A stretch of 64,000 nt of DNA from Symmetrospora coprosmae (taxonomy: Eukaryota > Basidiomycota > Cystobasidiomycetes > Symmetrosporaceae), in the NCBI GenBank assembly GCA_008802785.1, contig VUYT01000049.1:21064-85063 (forward strand). Reading direction: 5' to 3'. The notes below the pieces were generated by a model. The model was not told the DNA's origin. It made no database searches and was given only the letters and a program-made list of their open reading frames with translations. Below are positions 360-38,995 of this stretch, piece by piece (position 1 is the stretch's first letter; every line of letters starts with the position of its first letter). A program made the position numbers and the translations under genes.

Positions 360-2219
360 ATGCGCACCTTCGCAGGCGCAGCCGTGGCTCTGAGCCTCCT
401 GAACATCGCCGGACCCGCAGCAGCAGCGCCAGCTCCGCCACCGATACACGCCTACACGCCATTCGATGACCTCGACCTGCTCGCATCGTCGTCGGAGAAG
501 CGCGACCTCGACCGCCGATTCACCTCGAACGGTGGCATGCGGGTCGGCTTCCAGCAGAAGCGTGGCAGCGAGTACGGCCGGACGGTGAAGCGCTTCGCCA
601 AGAGGCAGGGCAACTCTCCCGCGGACGATTCTGCAGACTTGCTCAACTACCTCGATATCCGGTACGTGCCCTCAGCCCGCGACCTAGGTGCCTTCCTCCC
701 GAGTCGCTGACCTCGCCTTCCATTTCGGAACGATGACGCCGCCCTGCAGGTACATTGCTACGATCAACATCGCCGGACAAGATCTCGATGTCATCCTCGA
801 CACAGGGAGCACGGAGTGAGTCTGGACGTACTGTCCGGGCCCCGTTCCTGCGCTGACGCCACTTCGCAGCACCTTCGTGTACTCAGCGCAGCCCGATCCT
901 CTCGCTGGTCTTCCAGCGTCGCAGCTGCCTCCCCTCTTCGACAACACCACTCGGGAGGGCCTTTACGAGACCGACCTCGTCTATGAGGCGCAGTACGGCG
1001 CCGGAAACGGCGTGACGTCCACTCTAGGGACAGTCATGCTGGCCGACTGCTTCTTGAACGGCACGGACCTCGGCGACGGAACACCACTCACAGTCACGAA
1101 CCTGTCCTTCGCTGCGCTGTACCAGTCTACGGCCGCGACTGGGGCCTCTGGCCTGCTCGGTCTCGGCTTCCCCCTAAACGGTAAGGTTCAGCAGCTTTGA
1201 ATCAAAGCGAAAGGCAGCTAATGCTTGAGCTGCGCACAGGCATTGTATGGCTCGAGGCCATCACCCGCTACTATAACCAGACGGGGCAGGCTCTCTCTCT
1301 CAACGAAAGCGCCGAGTACTGGCCGATCGTGCCGCTTCTCTTCCATGAGGAGCGGATCCCGCGCAACCTCTTCTCGGTCGAGGTCGACAGAAACAACGAG
1401 ACCGTCGTGCCGACCGCCGCGACACAGTTCGACTACACCGAGGGTGGCACGCTCACCCTTGGCGATTTCCCGGAGGGTCTCGGAGAGAGCGACTTTTCTT
1501 GGTCGGCGGTTCCCGTTGTCCAATTCAACGAGGTCGGACAAGCCAGAGGTCTGCCAGTAGCCACTGGTAACAGATGGACGACTCCTTTGCAAGCTATCTA
1601 CTTCAATGGACGAAGACTTGACGACACTCTGCAGCAGACGGACAACGAGGACGGCAATTTTGTCCTTATCGACACGGGCAACCCGTCGACCGCTCTGCCG
1701 AGTGACGTCCTCAGCCAGATCACTAACGCGTTCGCTGCTAATCCCGACGTAAGCTCCCGCCGTCTTCGATTGACCCCTGCCATCCAGGCTGACGGATATG
1801 CCACACCATCGTAGAACCTTGTCGTCCCATGTGACTCGACTTTTGAGCTCATCTTCCAGATTGGCGGTACCAACTTCACAATGGCCCGCGAGGATTTCCT
1901 TGTTCCGTCGGCCGAGGCGCTCGACTCGCTGCAGTTCGGTGGATTCAGCACGCAAGGTTGCCAGTTGCAAGCGCAGCCGAACTCCCCTACTCCCAACGAG
2001 ATCGGACCCGGTACATCGATCAGCTATCTCTTCGGAGCACCGTTCCTGCGCTCAGTCTACTCGGTATGTCTCCTTGACTCTGGCTGTGCATTTCCTGTCG
2101 CAACATACGGCTGATCAGCGTTATCTGATGTCGCCCTGACGCAGGTCTTCGATTACGGAGACCTGACCAACAGCATCGCTACACCACCGCGCATCGGTCT
2201 CCGCTCGCGCGTTCAGTAG
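360..2219 (+). CDS. Secreted pepsin-like aspartic protease (copy 1 of tandem pair)
   Basis: Six exons (360-661, 750-815, 870-1180, 1240-1748, 1815-2063, 2145-2219) give 503 aa. This is a secreted A1-family endopeptidase that should cleave proteins outside the cell or in the cell wall. Residues 1-20 are a hydrophobic signal peptide ending in Ala-rich sequence. A propeptide with dibasic sites follows, the last being KRQ at 81-83, a likely Kex2-type cut. The first catalytic motif is LDTGST with Asp118, and the second is IDTGNPST with Asp371. The residue after the second DTG is Asn where Thr or Ser is usual, so activity should be tested rather than assumed. The intron positions are the same as in the next gene downstream, so the two are a tandem duplication. 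The start was chosen because it opens directly into the signal peptide. Confidence 0.88.
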
Positions 2220-2894
2220 GCACCAATATGCAACCTCCTTCGGTCGGTCGGCCTGACCCGTCCTGGGGCCACGGACACTCGATATACGTCAGGATAATCA
2301 GATTTGTAGCAATGTAGATTTAGCGAAATCATCTTAGCGCGCCGACAATCTATTCTATCATCTCAAGGTCATTCTCATCGTTTCGCCTTTCTCGCCGCCG
2401 AACTCGCGAGGTCCCTAAGGCCCAGGCATAGTCGGGCCTGCATGGCTGATCCTCCGATGGCTCAGGCTCTCTCTGCTCGAAAACCTGGAATTGACCAAAG
2501 CGCCTTCATGGCGGCCAATTCATGCCGTTGATTGCGCCCTGAGGCAGACTCCCAGAAACTCCGCTTGTTAACTGACATGACGCGCGACACCGCGTGGCAG
2601 CGGAGAACCTGGCCCGCGTCGTCAAGAGGACGAGTCGAGTACCGAGCGGTCTTCGCCCCATCTCCTCGCTCCGAGACTCGGTGTTTCCATCTGCATCGAC
2701 ACCAAAGCAATCTTCTTTGCCTGCAGGTTCTCTCCTCCTCTTCACGAACCATCCCGCTCATCAGCAGCTTCCTCCGTCACCTCCTCCTCCGCCGTGCCCC
2801 ACGCGACTGCGTCAGACAGCTCCGCCAGATCTGCTGATCTGATTGCAGAGCAGCTGCAACCTCTCTCACTCTACACCAACATCACAAACTCAAC
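2220..2894. other. Spacer between the tandem proteases
   Basis: No gene is supported. Short open frames overlap on both strands without protein character. It should contain the terminator of protease 1 and the promoter of protease 2, with pyrimidine-rich stretches just before the second start. Confidence 0.5.
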
Positions 2895-4723
2895 ATGCGA
2901 AGCGCTGCAGCCTCTGCTGTCTTTGCGATCTCAAGCTTCCTTCTCACCGGTCCAGCTGCAGCCGCCCCAGCCCCAGCTCCCTTCCCAGCGCCGCTTCACG
3001 CGTTTACGCCTTTCGACGATGTTGAGCTCCTCGCTGCATCGGTAGACGCGCAGCTCGACAAGCGCGTCGCGGTCTCAGGCGGGCTGCGCATTGGCTTCAA
3101 GGAGAGGCACGGCCAGTTCGGCGGGGCGGCCAAGCGTTTCACAAAGAGGCAGGCTGCGGACGACGAGTCTGAGCTCGGCAACTTTGGCGATATCCGGTGT
3201 GTTTGCGCTCTGGCTTACTAGTCTCCTCCACGCCGGTAAGCTGATCTGAATCCTTCGCACACAGCTACCTCGCCACCATCACCATAGCAGGACAGGAGCT
3301 GGATGTCATCCTTGACACTGGCAGTACCGAGTGCGTCCCCTGCTCTTAACTCCTGGCACATCTAATCCGTAGTGACTGACTCTCCCACCCGCAGCACCTT
3401 CGTCTATACGAGCCAGCCGGAGCCGTTTGAGGGTGTCCCCGCCGACCAGGTCCCGCCCCTGTTCGACAATTCGACACGACCCGGTCTCTACTCCACAGGC
3501 ATCCCATACGAGGCCCGGTACGGAAGCGGGAACGGCATCACAACTACGCGAGGCAATGTCCAGCTCGCAGATGTCTACATGAACGGCACAGACATCGGAG
3601 ACGGTACCCCTCTCGCGGTAGCCAACCTCTCCTTTGCGGCACTGTACGAGTCAAGCTCTGCTACTGGCGCTTCAGGACTGCTCGGTCTCGGCTTCCCCCT
3701 GAATGGTCAGTTGAGCTTGGTCCATGCTTCCGGTGCGATGCTGACTCGTTCCTCTTAACAGGCATCGTATGGCCATCGGTCATCTCAAGCTACTACAACG
3801 AGACCGGAGAGGCTCTTTCTCCCGACCAGAGCGCACGCTTCTACCCCATCGTGCCCCTTCTGCACCACGAGGGCCGCATCCCGCGTAACTTGTTCTCCGT
3901 CGAGGTCGACCGTGACCCGGCCGACGCTCCTCCTCCTACTGGCTTTGTATACACCGCTGGAGGTACGCTCACTCTTGGAGACTTCCCTGAAGGCACCCAG
4001 GAATCGGACTTCACCTGGTCTCCAGTGCCTATCGTCGAGTTCAACGAGGTCGGGGTTAGCCGTGGGCTTCCGAAAGCAACCGGCAACAGATGGACTCTCG
4101 AACTGCAGGGAATCTACTTCAACGGAGCACGTCTTCAGGACACTGAAGAGGGTAGCGCAGGAACGGACGGGAAGCAGTATCTCCTGGTCGATACGGGGAA
4201 CCCATCCACCGGTCTGCCTCAGGATGTCCTGCTGCAGATCACGAACGCCTACGCGGCCAATCCGAGCGTGAGTGCCTACCTCAGAGCCTCTAGAAAGTCC
4301 TCTTGCTAACAAATGCTCTCGCAGAACGCCTTTGTGGCCTGTGACGCGCCTTTCGAGCTTGCGTTCCAGTTCGGCGGGAAGAACTTCACCATGAACCGCG
4401 CCGACTTCCTGGTCCCTTCATCTGAGGCTCTGGACTCGGTTCAGCTTGGTGGATCTACGGACTCAGGTTGCCAGGTGCAGATTCAACCGGGAGAGGTCTC
4501 TCCCGAGGACTTTGGGAAGGGGACACACATCTCTGGGACCCTAGGTACACCATTCCTTCGCTCGGTATTTTCCGTAGGTTATCAGCTCCCTCAAGCGCGC
4601 ACCTGATATCGCACAGCTGAATCGCATTCTTCTTGTGTGCTGCCGCAGGTCTTCGACTATGGAGACCTGACCGATGCCATCTCGTCCCCTCCGCGCATCG
4701 GCCTCGCTCAGCGCACGCAGTGA
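2895..4723 (+). CDS. Secreted pepsin-like aspartic protease (copy 2 of tandem pair)
   Basis: Six exons (2895-3196, 3265-3330, 3395-3705, 3762-4267, 4325-4573, 4649-4723) give 502 aa. Exon lengths 302/66/311/506/249/75 match those of the upstream copy (302/66/311/509/249/75) except for one codon in exon 4. It has a signal peptide (residues 1 to about 22), a propeptide with a KRFTKRQ dibasic site, a first motif LDTGST at Asp118 and a second motif VDTGNPST at Asp370. The DTGN form of the second motif is shared with copy 1, so it is a property of this lineage, not a sequencing slip. Family knowledge: A1 peptidases use the two Asp residues to activate water for peptide-bond cleavage. The proteins differ at many sites, so the duplication is not recent. 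Role and substrate are unknown. Confidence 0.88.
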
Positions 4724-32863: not shown

Positions 32864-35800
32864 TCAAGTGCGGACGAACGTGTGAGGCTGGTTGGGGTCA
32901 GGAGCGACGTAGCCCGCCCAGGTACCCGCAGGGATGGTCACGAACGGCTGTTCGGCAGGACCGACATTGAACGGCGGCCGCCGACCATCGGTCTCGATGT
33001 AGTGTCCGAGGATGTAGCAGTGGAGACCGCCGCTGTTGGCATCTCGGTTGAAGACGACTTGAAGCTGTCCAGGAGGGTTGTTGGCGTTCGGTGCCGCACG
33101 CAAGGACGCGTCGAGAGCGTGTGCTTGTCCGAGCGTTGCTGGGTGTGGGCAAAGAGCATGCGTGCAGCCCTGCACCCTATGTGTCGGTCTCCCTGAAATG
33201 GTGTGCAGTGTCAGCCACGGCGACGACGGTCGGAGAGAGAGCAGACGCGCGCACATTCTGGAACGCCATGAGCGCTAACGAGACCAGCTAGCGTGCCATC
33301 AGCTCGCTGACAGTGACGTTGCAGACCATGATGGCCATTGTTGCGACGCCGTCGCTTGACAGTCCTGTTCGGAGGAGAGTCACCTCAGTTAGAGCATTGC
33401 ATTGCAAAGCCTCGCTCGCATAGACATACTTGTGCGCTGCGTTCTGGCACTTGAAGACCACGCGCTCTAGCGTCTGCACGCGATGGACATGCTGGTTTGC
33501 CTGAGGCTGCACTGCGCCATTCTGCCAGATATCGCCCTGGAAAGAGCAAGCTGCGATAGTAGACGTGCCGCGCTCGCGTACGAGAACGACAGTGTGCCCG
33601 AGAATAGCCAAGAGGCGAGCCAAGGACTGTAGCACGTATCGTCAGTTATTTTGCCATAGAAGTCAACAAGCCTAGATCGAGCAACCTACAAGCTGTGCCG
33701 CTGCCGCGTGTCCGCCTGCCCAAGTGTTGCCCTGTCCGAAGCCGAATGCCACAAGTGCTTTGAGTAGGTGGACAGGGCGGTTGAAGCGGATGCGGAGAGC
33801 ATCTCGGATTGAGCCAAGAGCGCGCTCTCGACGTGGATGTTTGAGGTGGAGAGGGCGACCGGAAGCATGGAACTCGGCGTGCGTAATGTCGCCCACGACG
33901 TATCGAGCCAGGCGAGTCTCCTGGGAGGCGCGAGTGACCTCGACTGTTCGGCGCCGTCGCGTGGCCCTGACACGGCGTTTGTAGAATGCTCGCAATTTGC
34001 CGTACACAAGCGCTTTCTGCGCTGTGTAGACCGCGTTCTGCGGCGGTAAGATTGATAAGCCTGTCAGTAGCTTCCCTATGATGAGGAAAAGATAGGCAAA
34101 CTCACCAAGCGAATGTCGCAGCCTTCTCTCGCGATCTGCAAGCCGCGCAAGTGATCTATCATGGTGTTTACCGAATCGCGATTGAGCAGAACTGCACGAG
34201 CTGCATCAGATGCACGGGCATCTCTCTCGTTGCGATTTGACCAAGCTGTGGCTGTAGCCTCCAGGCTGTGACGTCCTCGCTCGAGTCGAACATGCGCTGC
34301 CGTGCCTGCTCCGGCTTGATGCGCTTCTGGCAGGTGCGCGTCGACAGCTGCCACCTGATAGACCTGTCCAGGATCCATGCCAATCAAGCGACGGTTGGGG
34401 TTATGAAAGACTGCGGCGGGGAGAAGTGGCGTGCGGGAAATGGAAGTAAGAGAGCCGGTGCTGTCCCCGCCCGGGTATGTTGTTTCGGGCGGAGGTACAT
34501 TCTGATGCCGTGCGATCTTGACCAGCTCTTCGACGCGGGTGATGCGGGACTGCCGAACGTAGGCTGGGACATTCGAAGCCATCTTGACGCGTATCTTGAG
34601 GTCCTGACCGTCTGTGATGATGGCGATCGATTCGAGCTGATTGTCCAAGCCGCCTGTGTACAGGAGGGTCAGCTTCGTTAGACTCGAAAGACTCGAAAAG
34701 ATGCTGTTGCACTAACATAAGCGTATAGTATCCGGGCTCGTTACGGTCTGGCCGAACATCCCAGGAAAGAAGCGCGCAAAGGCAGCACGCTGAGCCTCGC
34801 CTGTCATCCCACTTGCGGCCGCGTAGCGTAGGGGAGCGTTGGGGAGGTGAGGCTAACACAAAATGTCAGTGAATTGATATCTTGGGGAATGGAGTACTGA
34901 GACAGACTCACCGTCCGATTGATAGCAACGTCGACGTCGGTGAACTGATACATGCCTCCTCTCGGCCGTCGGAGAGCAGGGAGCAGGGCGCTCGCAAGAA
35001 TCTTGTAGTCGATGGGAATACGCTCATCTCGATATTCATTCTTATCCGGGGTGAGCTTGATGCCCTTGTAGTTGCCAGGCAAGACACCAAGCGCATTGGC
35101 AGATAGATGTCGGTGCATTTGACCGGCGTACCGCAAGAAGAGGAAAAGACGAGTACCGATTCGCCAGTCTCGCGCCATGATGTCATCCCAGCCCTGATTG
35201 TGCCCGGCATCGTCGTAAATGTCGCGAGTGGTAGGGTAATTCACGAGTGGGGCTGCCGGGGGAACGTTGGTGAAGGTAGGAAGATGTGGAAGCAGAGCGG
35301 AGTTGAGCAGCTGAATGATGGGCTGAATAACTCGGAGCCACCGAGCTCTGTGCGCTTGGCTGATTGGCGCGGGAAACATCGGATGCTGTCCGTTGTAGGG
35401 CAGCGCGGGTGCATTCAAAGGGTAGTGAGCAAGCTTGATGAAGCGGGGATGCAAGAACGCTGCTGTTCGCTCTGCAAGCGTATCAAAATGCGCAGCTCCC
35501 TGCCCTTGCGGGAAAAGAACTCTGCGCAGATCGCTCAAGACGACGCGGATCGCAGCAGGCACGGCCTTCTGAAGGTGTGTCTTCAAGTTACCGGCTCGCA
35601 AGCCTTTCACCTGGTCGACAAACGAACGCCAACTGTACGTGGACGTCCGCAGATCGACCATGGTGCTGCCTGGCACTCGAATGCATGCATGCACGTTGGA
35701 CTGGTAGATCTGCCGTAGACTGCCGCCAGCAAATTGGGGCGTGAGGAGACAGTCCAGCACTTCGCGCTGGAAGCCGTAGTGCAGCTGGAAGGGATTGATG

Positions 35801-36183
35801 GGATCTGGATGTGCGGGACGTGTCGTAGCGGGAAATGCGGGGATGATGTGTGGGATGGCCAGTGGGACAGGTCCGAGAAGGATGGGAGGAACGCTGAAAT
35901 GGTCATAGGAAGGAAACGGGAAGAGGGCGGTAGGCTGACGGGTAACAACTGCGCCGAGCGGGACAGTGAGGTATCCGTACTGAGCGAGCTGGTTGTCGAG
36001 GATGTTTGCGAGGAAATCGTGCTGAAGAACAGTGAACTCGTAGTGGAGCTGAGTCGCTTCGCCAGCGAAGTGTCCAACTTGCCAGACGAGTCGTGTTTTC
36101 TTGCGCGAGCTCCAGAGAGGGGGAAGAGCGGCACGGAGCTTGACACGCGGGTAGGTACGGATGCCTGGATTACTGGGGGCCAT
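32864..36183 (-). CDS. TnpB/Fanzor-like RuvC-domain protein
   Basis: Seven exons (36183-34912, 34852-34717, 34653-34106, 34037-33690, 33626-33430, 33364-33255, 33192-32864) give 979 aa. Every junction keeps phase; intron 5 has donor GTATGT, a CTAAC branch site and an AACAG acceptor. The first 520 or so residues are unrecognised. Then come RuvC-I-like RLIGMDPGQVYQVAAVD (Asp563), an Arg-rich helical stretch, and VAFGFGQGNTWAGGHA. VVLVRERGTSTIAACSF follows (Glu786, Cys795), then RVQGCTHALC (Cys880, Cys885) and VVFNRDANSGG (Asp921). This is the order of TnpB/Fanzor nucleases: Asp, shifted Glu beside a TS motif, zinc knuckle, NRD. The first half of the zinc knuckle looks degenerate. If active it would be an RNA-guided DNA endonuclease. 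If not, it may be domesticated. No terminal inverted repeats were recognised. Confidence 0.6.
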
Positions 36184-36573: not shown

Positions 36574-38481
36574 ATGTCAGCCAATTCGATGAGCATGTCG
36601 CCGGCGCCAGAACCTGCTTTGCGCGATCTGAAAAGCCTCGAAGAGAGCATCACTCGACTTGTGCAGACAAGCCTCGGAGAGATAAAGGAGGAGATGCAGA
36701 CAGGCTTTCAGAGTATGAACGATAAGCTCGACGGCTTCGAGAACGTGCTGCAGGAAGGACTTCGGTCAGGTGTGCCAACAAAGTACGCCCAGCAGATTCG
36801 AGATCAGGAACGTCAGCTACGCGAGCTGCGCGGGCAGCTGGCCAGCAGCGAAGCGACCGCAGAGCGGTTGCGGAACACGGACGGCATGAAGCTCGGTCAG
36901 GCGCTACAGGCAGTCAGTGCTGCAGCGAGACAAGTAACAGCGCCTGCCAAGACAAAGTTCACGGAGTTAGTTGGAGACGTCGTTCGGACCAAGGTGATGC
37001 AGTATCATTCCGCCGGTCCTTTGGCCGTAGCTGACGGGTGTTGCCAATCAGGAAATGACCAAGGCGAAAATTAGAAGTCGATTTAGAGCGTTGACGCGTG
37101 TCAATGGGGCAGATACCCTGCCAGCGGAGAGCAGGAGCACATTGGACAAGAAGCATCCTCTGTGGCCGCTGTTCAGCTCGATTGCGAGCGAAGGTGTGTA
37201 TAGACGCGCAGCGAGCATGCAGTTTAATGAACGCGCCTACTGATACCCTTGCTATCAGTTGACATGATCAACTTCTTCGTCGACCCCGCGAACCGAGCGT
37301 TGGCCAACATGCTGCCGCAGCCCGGCAATTGTCAGCTTTGGCTGACGGAGCAGCCCTGCAGAACAATCGGAGACATGCCCGATGACAGCCTCGAGCTGCC
37401 TGTGCCGGAGTCGTTGGGTCAGCCTGAGCGCAAAGGAAAAGGTGTTGCTAGCAAGGCATCGACCGGCTTGGCGTCCCAGCTTGCATCCACACGTGCGCCA
37501 GGCACCGACGCTGCCGTCGACTTGCACCCCACCGACCTTGCGCAACTCTTCTCGCTTCCGGAAGGCCCGCCCACCACGTTCTACGCCGATCTCTCGGCTC
37601 CTCTCATGTCACAGGCGCCTGCGGCTGAGCCTGGCACCAGCTCTCGGCCTTCAGTCACAGCCAGGTCCACCTCGTCTGCATCGAGCAAGCGCAAAAAGTC
37701 TGCCAGTCCCCCGCCGGCTACGGGTAACATCCTCTACGACAATTACAAAGATTTGAACAGCTACCTAGCCGGAGAGTGGGGATTCACGAAAGAGCCGGAG
37801 GCCACACACCTTCACCGGAGCCAGTCCAACCGCGAGCTCTCCGCAGATGCGGAAGAGCGCCCACCGACCCAACGTCGACGGGCAGAGACCACAGCGGCCG
37901 TCAGGGTGCATCCGTCGGAGCTTCCGACCTTTCACAGCCAGAGTCTCGCCCTTTTCAACCTGCACTCGACGCCGGCACACAGCGACCCTTTCATTGCTCA
38001 ATCAGCCCCGCCTCAGCAGAGCACTCATCTCTTCTCCGAATCTAGCTTCCCTCCTCCCTCTTTCAGGCCTGCCATGGAAAGGCAACCCTCCTTCCCAGCC
38101 TACCCATCAGCGACTGCGGGAAACCGCTCGTTTCCGCCAACGTTCACCTTGCCAGACGCTCATCGAATGAGATCGGCTACCACCTCTACGATGAGCTCCG
38201 CATCAAGTCGCCCGCAGTACAGTCCCACCAGCCCTGTCACCTTCCAGGCTCCGACGAGCCCAGCCCGCTCCCGAACGACCAGTAGGAACACCAGTCCGAC
38301 GCACCGCCTGAGGCGACAGCCGTCTAAAGCAAGCAGCTTGCACGGCAGCTTCTTGCCTGAAGAGACTCCTGGGCAGCTGGAGTCGGACGCGGCGAGCCGT
38401 ACACGAGAGGCTCGTAGAGATGCAAGCTACACAGTACCGATCTCACATGTACCCCACGACGCTAAGACCTTGCTCAAATAA
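36574..38481 (+). CDS. Coiled-coil and disordered protein of unknown function
   Basis: Three exons (36574-36993, 37052-37193, 37259-38481) give 594 aa. The first 140 residues are helical and coiled-coil like (LEESITRLVQTSLGEIKEEM, then IRDQERQLRELRGQLASSEA). The centre has ALTRVNGADTLP, HPLWPLFSSI and VDMINFFVDPANRAL. The C-terminal half is Ser/Pro-rich and disordered with basic KRKK and RRRR patches. I do not recognise a family. Intron phases (0 and 1) fit. The pattern would suit a nuclear regulatory or scaffold protein, but this is only inference. Confidence 0.72.
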
Positions 38482-38649
38482 AGGCAGACTGCCTGCGCAA
38501 GTTCTGCGTTCACCCAATGGTGTCGCGTCTCCAAAAAGCCTGTGCAAGGTTTCCGGGCACGAAAGCCCATTCTGTGCCATTGCTGTCTGGTCGTTTTGTT
38601 GTCTTGTTGTCTGGTCGTCTGGTCGTCCCTCTTGTCGATGGTGGCCACC

Positions 38650-38766
38650 TCAATGCTCATGCTCAATGCTCATGCTCAATGCTCAATGCTCAATGCTCAG
38701 TGCTCACTGCTCAATGCTCGTCCTCAAGATTAATGCTCGATGCTCGATGCCCAATGCTCAGTGCCC
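38650..38766. repeat. Heptamer minisatellite (CAATGCT)
   Basis: Tandem AATGCTC/CATGCTC units, at first regular, then diverging (CAGTGCTC, GATGCTCG). It lies upstream of the CPL1-like gene. Copy number cannot be counted cleanly because units vary in length. Confidence 0.85.
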
Positions 38767-38882
38767 AGCTTCATCCACTACGTACTTACAGGCACTGGCT
38801 ATACCAATCATTCGAGAAGATACAGGTTGAGCCCGCCTGGCAGACCGTTCCACCCGTCCAGCCCAATCCTCCACACTGGCAA

Positions 38883-38995
38883 ACGGGTCGCTTGCGAACG
38901 GGGCGCTTGCGAACGGGGCGCTTGCGAACGGGTCGCTTGCGAACGGTGCGCTTGCGAACGGGGCGCTCGCGAACGGGGCGCTCGGCGGGGCGCTC
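38883..38995. repeat. 15-bp minisatellite (GCTTGCGAACGGGGC)
   Basis: About seven units with a 15-base period (cttgcg at 38891, 38906, 38921, 38936 and 38951, then ctcgcg and ctcggcg). The array ends about 160 bases before the CPL1-like start codon, in its likely promoter. Confidence 0.9.

Follow-up and report, generated by a model that had tools for sequence, protein, structure and literature searches.

A divergent, probably immobile Fanzor-like gene in Symmetrospora coprosmae with relatives in a repeated two-gene unit

Introduction

Does an intron-rich gene of the basidiomycete Symmetrospora coprosmae encode a eukaryotic RNA-guided nuclease, and does it still belong to a mobile element? The gene occupies positions 32864-36183, minus strand, of a 64,000-nucleotide stretch of DNA (the window) that corresponds to positions 21064-85063 of contig C43 (GenBank VUYT01000049.1) in a 20.05-Mb assembly of 77 contigs. 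A sequence-only reading of the window had likened its product to Fanzors and TnpB. We consider it probable that the gene encodes a divergent RuvC nuclease of the Fanzor1 type from a two-gene, apparently mobile lineage, with RNA guidance proposed by analogy and the window copy being old and single. What is new here is the repeated unit formed by relatives of the kind found on contig C21, with its divergently transcribed coiled-coil-like gene and conserved 3' end.

The occurrence of a Fanzor in a fungus is not in itself a novelty, because Fz1 is described as highly spread in fungi in the accessible portion of PMC10432273. A literature search, whose coverage lay largely outside subscription papers, returned no paper on Fanzor with basidiomycetes, none by title or start of abstract on a coiled-coil Fanzor partner gene and, among the matches listed, none by title on a domesticated Fanzor.

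Gene model and catalytic motifs

The gene reads as a single 979-aa frame from the ATG at 36183 to the stop codon ending at 32864. Its seven exons are separated by introns of 59, 63, 68, 63, 65 and 62 nt, each bounded by GT..AG, and the splice proposed in the sequence-only reading was reproduced without adjustment. The exons are listed below; L016 is the locus that holds the paralogous exon discussed in the next section.

34912..36183, minus strand: exon 1, N-terminal half, 424 aa (by splicing; paralogue exon at L016 6874-5546)
34717..34852, minus strand: exon 2 (by splicing)
34106..34653, minus strand: exon 3, RuvC-I with GMDPG, Asp563 at codon 34375-34373 (by splicing and Fanzor1 blocks)
33690..34037, minus strand: exon 4, FY helix and FGFGQGN..GGHA (by splicing and Fanzor1 blocks)
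33430..33626, minus strand: exon 5, Glu786 at codon 33575-33573 within ERGTS-TIAACSF (by splicing and Fanzor1 blocks)
33255..33364, minus strand: exon 6, Cys852 common to the C21 protein (by splicing and paralogue comparison)
32864..33192, minus strand: exon 7, knuckle Cys880-x4-Cys885, Asp921 at codon 33043-33041, GRRPPF and stop (by splicing and Fanzor1 blocks)

All three residues of the putative catalytic triad, Asp563, Glu786 and Asp921, are present. They lie in a series of motifs comprising GMDPG (Asp563), FGFGQGN..GGHA (residues 750-762), ERGTS (Glu786), RVQGCTHALC (Cys880 and Cys885) and FNRDAN (Asp921), found in TnpB/Fanzor order over exons 3, 4, 5 and 7, as had been proposed. The available part of PMC3627910 reports D-X(125,275)-[TS]-[TS]-X-X-[C4 zinc finger]-X(5,50)-RD from TnpB and Fanzor proteins only; the portion D-X(125,275)-[TS]-[TS] is credited to Bao and Jurka 2013. 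In the window protein, 225 residues lie between Asp563 and Thr789-Ser790, and 34 between Cys885 and Arg920-Asp921, within the 5-50 allowed.

Further hallmarks concern the surroundings of the triad. The excerpted text of PMC10711439 gives DPG, present here within GMDPG at RuvC-I, as near-exclusive to Fanzors, with the Glu shifted to six residues before the finger. The window protein carries this displaced Glu in the form E-x2-[TS]S-x2, reading E786-R-G-T-S-T-I and then position 793, formerly a Cys. A Gly 36 residues ahead of the Glu is extremely conserved in Fanzor1 (G500 and E536, from the same portion of PMC3627910), and Gly751 sits 35 residues before Glu786. The FY helix, HxxxxC and RPxxF, stretches common to the compared Fanzor1 proteins, also occur in order. 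When the window protein was shuffled, 17 of 200,000 sequences matched DPG-x(100,300)-ExxTS-x(20,160)-RDxN.

A full-length paralogue

A protein search of the genome that scored best candidates only revealed another complete gene (1002 aa), located on contig C21, along with fragments on C14 and C12; by the same search the window copy is single. Window and C21 proteins are identical at 367 of 943 aligned residues (39%); within the first 520 residues the count is 183 of 502, and beyond them it is 184 of 441. Because those 183 residues match in C21, the N-terminal half is a conserved part of the protein, and its earlier description as unlike anything nameable has to be withdrawn. The triad is conserved in C21, where the displaced Glu is E811 and the place of GMDPG is taken by GMDGG. 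With the pattern loosened to D[PG]G, matches rose to 29 of 200,000 shuffles for the window protein and stood at 13 of 200,000 for C21.

Intron phases are 0,1,0,0,2,1 in both genes (six of six), an agreement that is partly by construction, as the C21 splice sites were picked with the window gene in view. Four of the six intron positions fall in identical alignment columns and two are off by 3-5 columns. The existence of suitable GT-AG introns of 58-83 nt at the corresponding places in C21 is not by construction. Over 943 codons the two genes differ at 47, 40 and 67% of first, second and third positions. This pattern indicates that selection has maintained the protein, although with only two deep lineages the constraint cannot be assigned to one branch.

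Relationship to Fanzor1

To three Fanzor1 proteins of the Protein Data Bank (PDB) we added a fourth. A DNA motif search of viral contigs recovered a canonical 671-aa Fanzor1 (L067, positions 1785-3797) on the 4-kb metagenomic contig IMGVR_UViG_3300042867_001586, which matched PpFz1 (E 4.5e-35), SpuFz1 (E 2.8e-34) and GtFz1 (E 4.4e-23); a search with L067 as query returned L067 itself only. These four proteins constitute the Fanzor1 reference.

Eight hand-set Fanzor1 blocks occupied corresponding places in the two proteins, with scores of 46.7 bits (window) and 43.9 bits (C21). None of 2,000 shuffles of either protein, and none of 1,500 open reading frame (ORF) decoys, reached these scores (maxima of 42.4 for window shuffles, 35.0 for C21 shuffles and 41.1 for decoys). 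The decoys exclude the family loci L001-L021 and the TnpB loci, as in the TnpB/Cas12f test below, and additionally L028 and L067. With SpuFz1 removed from the blocks, the raw scores were 38.8 (window) and 33.9 (C21). When blocks were chosen automatically, none of 1,000 shuffles reached the score of C21, and the chain in the window protein still landed on Asp563, Glu786 and RD. The profile comparison suggested in the sequence-only reading gave, for the family against the four Fanzor1 proteins, a single hhalign alignment under a permissive setting (E 0.053), collinear through the catalytic motifs. Taken on this evidence, the family appears to be Fanzor1-like at the limit of detection.

The repeated two-gene unit

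The C21 gene belongs to a repeated unit of two head-to-head genes, about 4.8 kb long in C21. In DNA searches its right end recurred on C14, C44 and C3, with a truncated piece on C12, and the right-end junctions of four copies are identical up to GGGAAA-N-CCGC and diverge from one another afterwards. C14, C44 and C3 each begin inside the unit at the right side, while C25 and C57 begin inside it on the other side and match it through the end of the second, divergently transcribed gene. Because these five contigs begin inside units, the assembly seems to break at similar copies, and the number of copies is a lower bound. Past the point where C21 diverges, the C25 and C57 copies continue to match each other for about 500 bp, and 58 bp at the C60 end match as well, so that point does not fix the left end.

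The partner protein has 278 aa in C21, with sub-threshold Pfam matches only, to coiled-coil-type families. Its gene and further pieces are located as follows.

L016 7139-8127, plus strand: divergent partner gene of the C21-type unit
L032 1-443, L033 1-443 and L034 1735-2293: further pieces of the partner gene

Pfam recognised neither gene of the unit as a transposase, and no systematic search for a transposase elsewhere was made. The compared C21-type copies are under strong purifying selection. Between C21 and C14 (307 codons), nonsynonymous divergence (dN) is 0.033 and synonymous divergence (dS) 0.465, giving dN/dS 0.07; the ratio is 0.09 for C21-C12 and 0.07 for C14-C12 (139 codons each). 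The C21-type copies are apparently mobile.

Three observations concern the surroundings of these copies. Contig C8 (L034) carries a partner-gene piece of 77% identity with stops in the printed frames, and the contig gave no reported nuclease match. A further repeat lies beside the left side of two copies (L032 and L033, about 500-1080) and at the C60 end (L064). This repeat, in which a coding remnant (..HKEATQRFIYSFHLWEQEMEFD..) may survive, could belong to the element or be a separate repeat. Finally, L032 1049-1154, in the left flank of the C25 copy, matches L025 168-275, in the right flank of the C3 copy, over 108 bp at 87%.

A conserved 3' stretch as candidate guide RNA

Directly after the stop codon, a noncoding stretch of about 106 nt is conserved well beyond the introns. 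C21 and C14 agree at 104 of 106 positions, against 137 of 188 in introns (Fisher p 2.7e-9); C14 and C12 agree at 87 of 91, against 95 of 124 (p 9e-5), and C21 and C12 at 87 of 91, against 96 of 124. Across the compared C21-type copies, this corresponds to 96-98% identity in the 3' stretch and 73-79% in the introns. Over the last 50 codons, synonymous divergence between C21 and C14 is also lower, at 0.17 compared with 0.53. In exon 7 of the C14 and C12 copies (L017-L018), the second half is identical at 152 of 153 positions and the first half at 130 of 151; this identity near the element end may stem from RNA constraint or gene conversion.

In the accessible portion of PMC10432273, the SpuFz1 guide RNA consists of 75 nt of post-stop noncoding sequence and 14-15 nt of flank. 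The C21-type layout, in which constant post-stop sequence reaches the element end and variable DNA lies beyond it, corresponds to that of SpuFz1. By this analogy, the 3' stretch is a candidate guide RNA.

Weighing the assignment

A number of results weigh against a Fanzor1-type, RNA-guided nuclease. First, the C4 zinc finger is incomplete, with A793-x2-S796 in place of the first CxxC, and AACS likewise replaces it in C21 and C14. An earlier count of one missing Cys was right about the loss and wrong about the number, since both canonical Cys residues are gone (Ala793 and Ser796) and the single Cys lies at 795. The second knuckle half, C880-x4-C885, is kept, and Cys 795, 828 and 852 are common to the window protein and C21. 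Because the first knuckle is lost, strict Fanzor1 membership breaks at one clause; a C4 finger is found in many Fanzors, not all, according to the excerpt of PMC10711439. The proposed Fanzor/TnpB kinship is supported as a Fanzor-type reading by motif order and blocks; the protein departs from the published motif in its C4 finger.

Second, similarity to known proteins is faint. The hand-set blocks and their gap ranges were chosen after the window protein had been seen, and with automatic blocks 254 of 1,000 shuffles reached its score. A plain Fanzor1 hidden Markov model (HMM) was not significant (E 0.063 for the window protein as one sequence, 0.079 for C21), and 13 of 500 shuffles scored as high as each. 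Pfam at E 10 gave no match for the window protein and both paralogues; a phmmer search of PDB with the window protein returned hemocyanin at E 1.5, a chance match, and a PDB search by the two-member family profile returned none. TnpB profile comparisons likewise fell short of significance, with E 0.42 in one and E 0.2, for an alignment away from the catalytic part, in another. Single-exon structure models of exons 1 and 3 were unusable (predicted local distance difference test values of 48.8 and 34.1, in no assigned order).

TnpB/Cas12f blocks were weak as well, with 90 of 3,000 shuffles and 138 of 2,000 decoys for the window protein and 133 and 234 for C21, and they were misplaced, the third block missing RD in the window protein and the second missing Glu in C21. 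The known relative L79 (PDB 9b0l), which we take to be a mimiviral Fanzor2, scored 60.8 when left out of these blocks, compared with 19.4 for the window protein, whose score was 16.7 with L79 left out.

The third set of results concerns the 3' stretch and the window locus. The stretch folds no more stably than its shuffled versions (z -0.4, or down to -1.2 for longer stretches), Rfam gave no match at gathering score on L016, L017 or the window, and conservation of the stretch may come from transposase binding or gene conversion. The 3' flank of the window gene has no similarity to the C21 stretch (536 of 1,000 shuffles did as well). Around the window gene, none of ten inverted pairs or seven direct repeat families resembled an element end, in keeping with the earlier remark that no terminal repeats were visible. 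The right arm of the longest pair (30 nt, 70% complementary) lies inside the coding sequence of the neighbouring gene.

Could the motifs be coincidental in an unrelated protein? The plain HMM searches without a significant match, the automatic blocks in the window protein and the weak TnpB blocks would fit such a case. We nevertheless judge it highly improbable, given that the motifs stand in order in two proteins that are 61% different, that block chains are significant (hand-set in both proteins, automatic in C21) and that the C21-type copies have 3' ends resembling those of obligate mobile element-guided activity (OMEGA) systems.

A rather unlikely alternative accepts Fanzor descent but not the guide, with a RuvC/RNase H-like nuclease of a fungal transposon that works without guide RNA and a 3' stretch serving only as a transposase-binding end. 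The lost knuckle, the similarity at the limit of detection and the unexceptional fold agree with it, and transposase binding alone would keep a stretch located at the element end. Against this, the stretch begins right behind the stop codon and extends to the element end, an arrangement also seen in SpuFz1 (accessible portion of PMC10432273), and the fall in synonymous change extends into the last 50 codons (dS 0.17 against 0.53, C21-C14). A diverged, probably immobile RuvC nuclease of the Fanzor type is the best supported reading of the window gene, as judged from sequence.

Other searches gave candidates and nulls of their own. PF07282 had no match in this genome at E 0.001, and the family profile yielded 43 pattern matches in viral contigs, none confirmed. 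The DNA motif for WNRDVNAA led by chance to one locus, where the frame encodes a long phage-like protein that has no other Fanzor motifs. In viral contigs, L046, L051 and L061 encode TnpBs with a displaced Glu (EYYTSKxC) yet D-L-G at RuvC-I, with relatives in Clostridium and Anaerocolumna metagenome-assembled genomes (L062, L063). A genome scan made with displaced-Glu TnpB produced two relatives, which have no bearing on the window gene.

The window locus and its divergent neighbor

The window gene lies among ordinary genes, between PAPA-1 on its left side and HMG-CoA reductase on its right, in DNA of 56-63% G+C (2-kb steps). Its locus has no DNA similarity to those on C21, C14 and C12 apart from one 25-bp match far outside the gene. 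A second gene starts 390 bp away, head to head with it:

36574..38481, plus strand: divergent neighbor gene, 577-586 aa, coiled-coil-like N terminus by eye, no Pfam family
36574-36965 or -36969; 37075 or 37052 to 37193; 37259-38481, plus strand: its exons, first junction uncertain

The neighbor resembles the C21 partner in position, orientation and a phase-1 intron ahead of an FxxDP stretch. Sequence similarity between the two is weak (single-pair blastp E 0.003-0.02; 244 of 5,000 shuffles in local and 139 of 5,000 in semi-global alignment), and a genome search with the neighbor protein did not find the C21 partner. The resemblance is only suggestive of a counterpart.

Whether the window copy is a retained gene or a dead or dying transposon relic bears on its present role. 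Its single occurrence and the lack of convincing ends are what a relic would leave, but the 979-aa frame, splice sites and triad are intact, and the codon-position pattern against C21 speaks for selection, with the share of the window branch alone not separable. We regard a relic as unlikely. The copy is perhaps host-retained, and the term host-tamed used in the sequence-only reading stands as our inference too. A possible though doubtful form of retention is a Fanzor-derived two-gene module of nuclease and divergent coiled-coil-like partner, which the host has kept at a single locus and which has lost its transposon ends, takes guide RNA in trans from mobile relatives or uses none, and has rebuilt the knuckle from other cysteines.

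Two further features were observed nearby. A MUG190-like gene lies in the neighborhood, and positions 38580-38995, just past the neighbor gene, hold a cluster of short tandem repeats: some have 8-nt or CTCAATG-like units, and one is a 15-nt minisatellite (CTTGCGAACGGGGCG).

Proposed mechanism and significance

The analysis shows the gene model, the paralogue, the motifs with their conserved triad, selection on the compared C21-type copies and the repeated two-gene unit with its conserved 3' end; for the proposed Fanzor1-type nuclease, we infer the fold, RNA binding, guide RNA, cutting and continued action of the window copy. The enlarged N-terminal half would hold the guide-binding part, ahead of a RuvC nuclease with Asp563-Glu786-Asp921. 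By analogy with Fanzor1, each mobile copy would transcribe the end of its nuclease gene into an RNA. The conserved 3' stretch would supply the constant part of this RNA and the DNA directly flanking the element the variable part, and the protein would use the RNA to cut a matching site. The window copy would have kept its protein and divergent neighbor intact while losing mobility and recognizable element ends.

If true, the Fanzor family extends to a divergent branch that sequence searches of Pfam and PDB miss. This branch would be set apart by an altered zinc knuckle, an enlarged guide-side half and a partner gene carried within the repeated unit. That gene would be a practical starting point for asking what else a Fanzor element may need, and an intact single copy beside apparently mobile relatives would make Fanzor domestication directly testable in one small genome.

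Comparison with known systems

TnpBs of the IS607 and IS605 types, including those with displaced Glu, share with the window protein the D-E-D order, TS beside the Glu and RDxN, and hhalign sets Asp563 on the TnpB Asp, albeit without significance. They differ in showing no significant similarity, whereas the window gene has six introns and the Fanzor1 blocks. L79 shares DPG, the displaced Glu and RDxN, and its printed stretch scores 46.6 bits in the Fanzor1 chain, compared with 46.7 for the window protein; unlike the latter, it has a complete C4 zinc finger and readily matches TnpB profiles.

The differences from Fanzor1 are of size, knuckle and setting. Fanzor1 proteins are mostly 600-700 aa in the available part of PMC11423790, compared with 979-1002 aa in this family, and SpuFz1 has 158 residues from D to E (D383 and E541, from the accessible portion of PMC10432273), compared with 223 in the window protein. 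The first CxxC is A-x2-S in the window protein and C21, a head-to-head partner gene is present, and similarity is at the detection limit. What the window protein has in common with SpuFz1, PpFz1, GtFz1 and L067 is an order of parts, namely RuvC-I DPG, the FY helix, a Gly before the Glu and the displaced Glu before Thr-Ser, followed by a C-x4-C knuckle half (as in SpuFz1), NRD and RPxxF. The C21-type relatives add a likeness of architecture, in that a repeated unit carries them and a conserved 3' end follows right after the stop.

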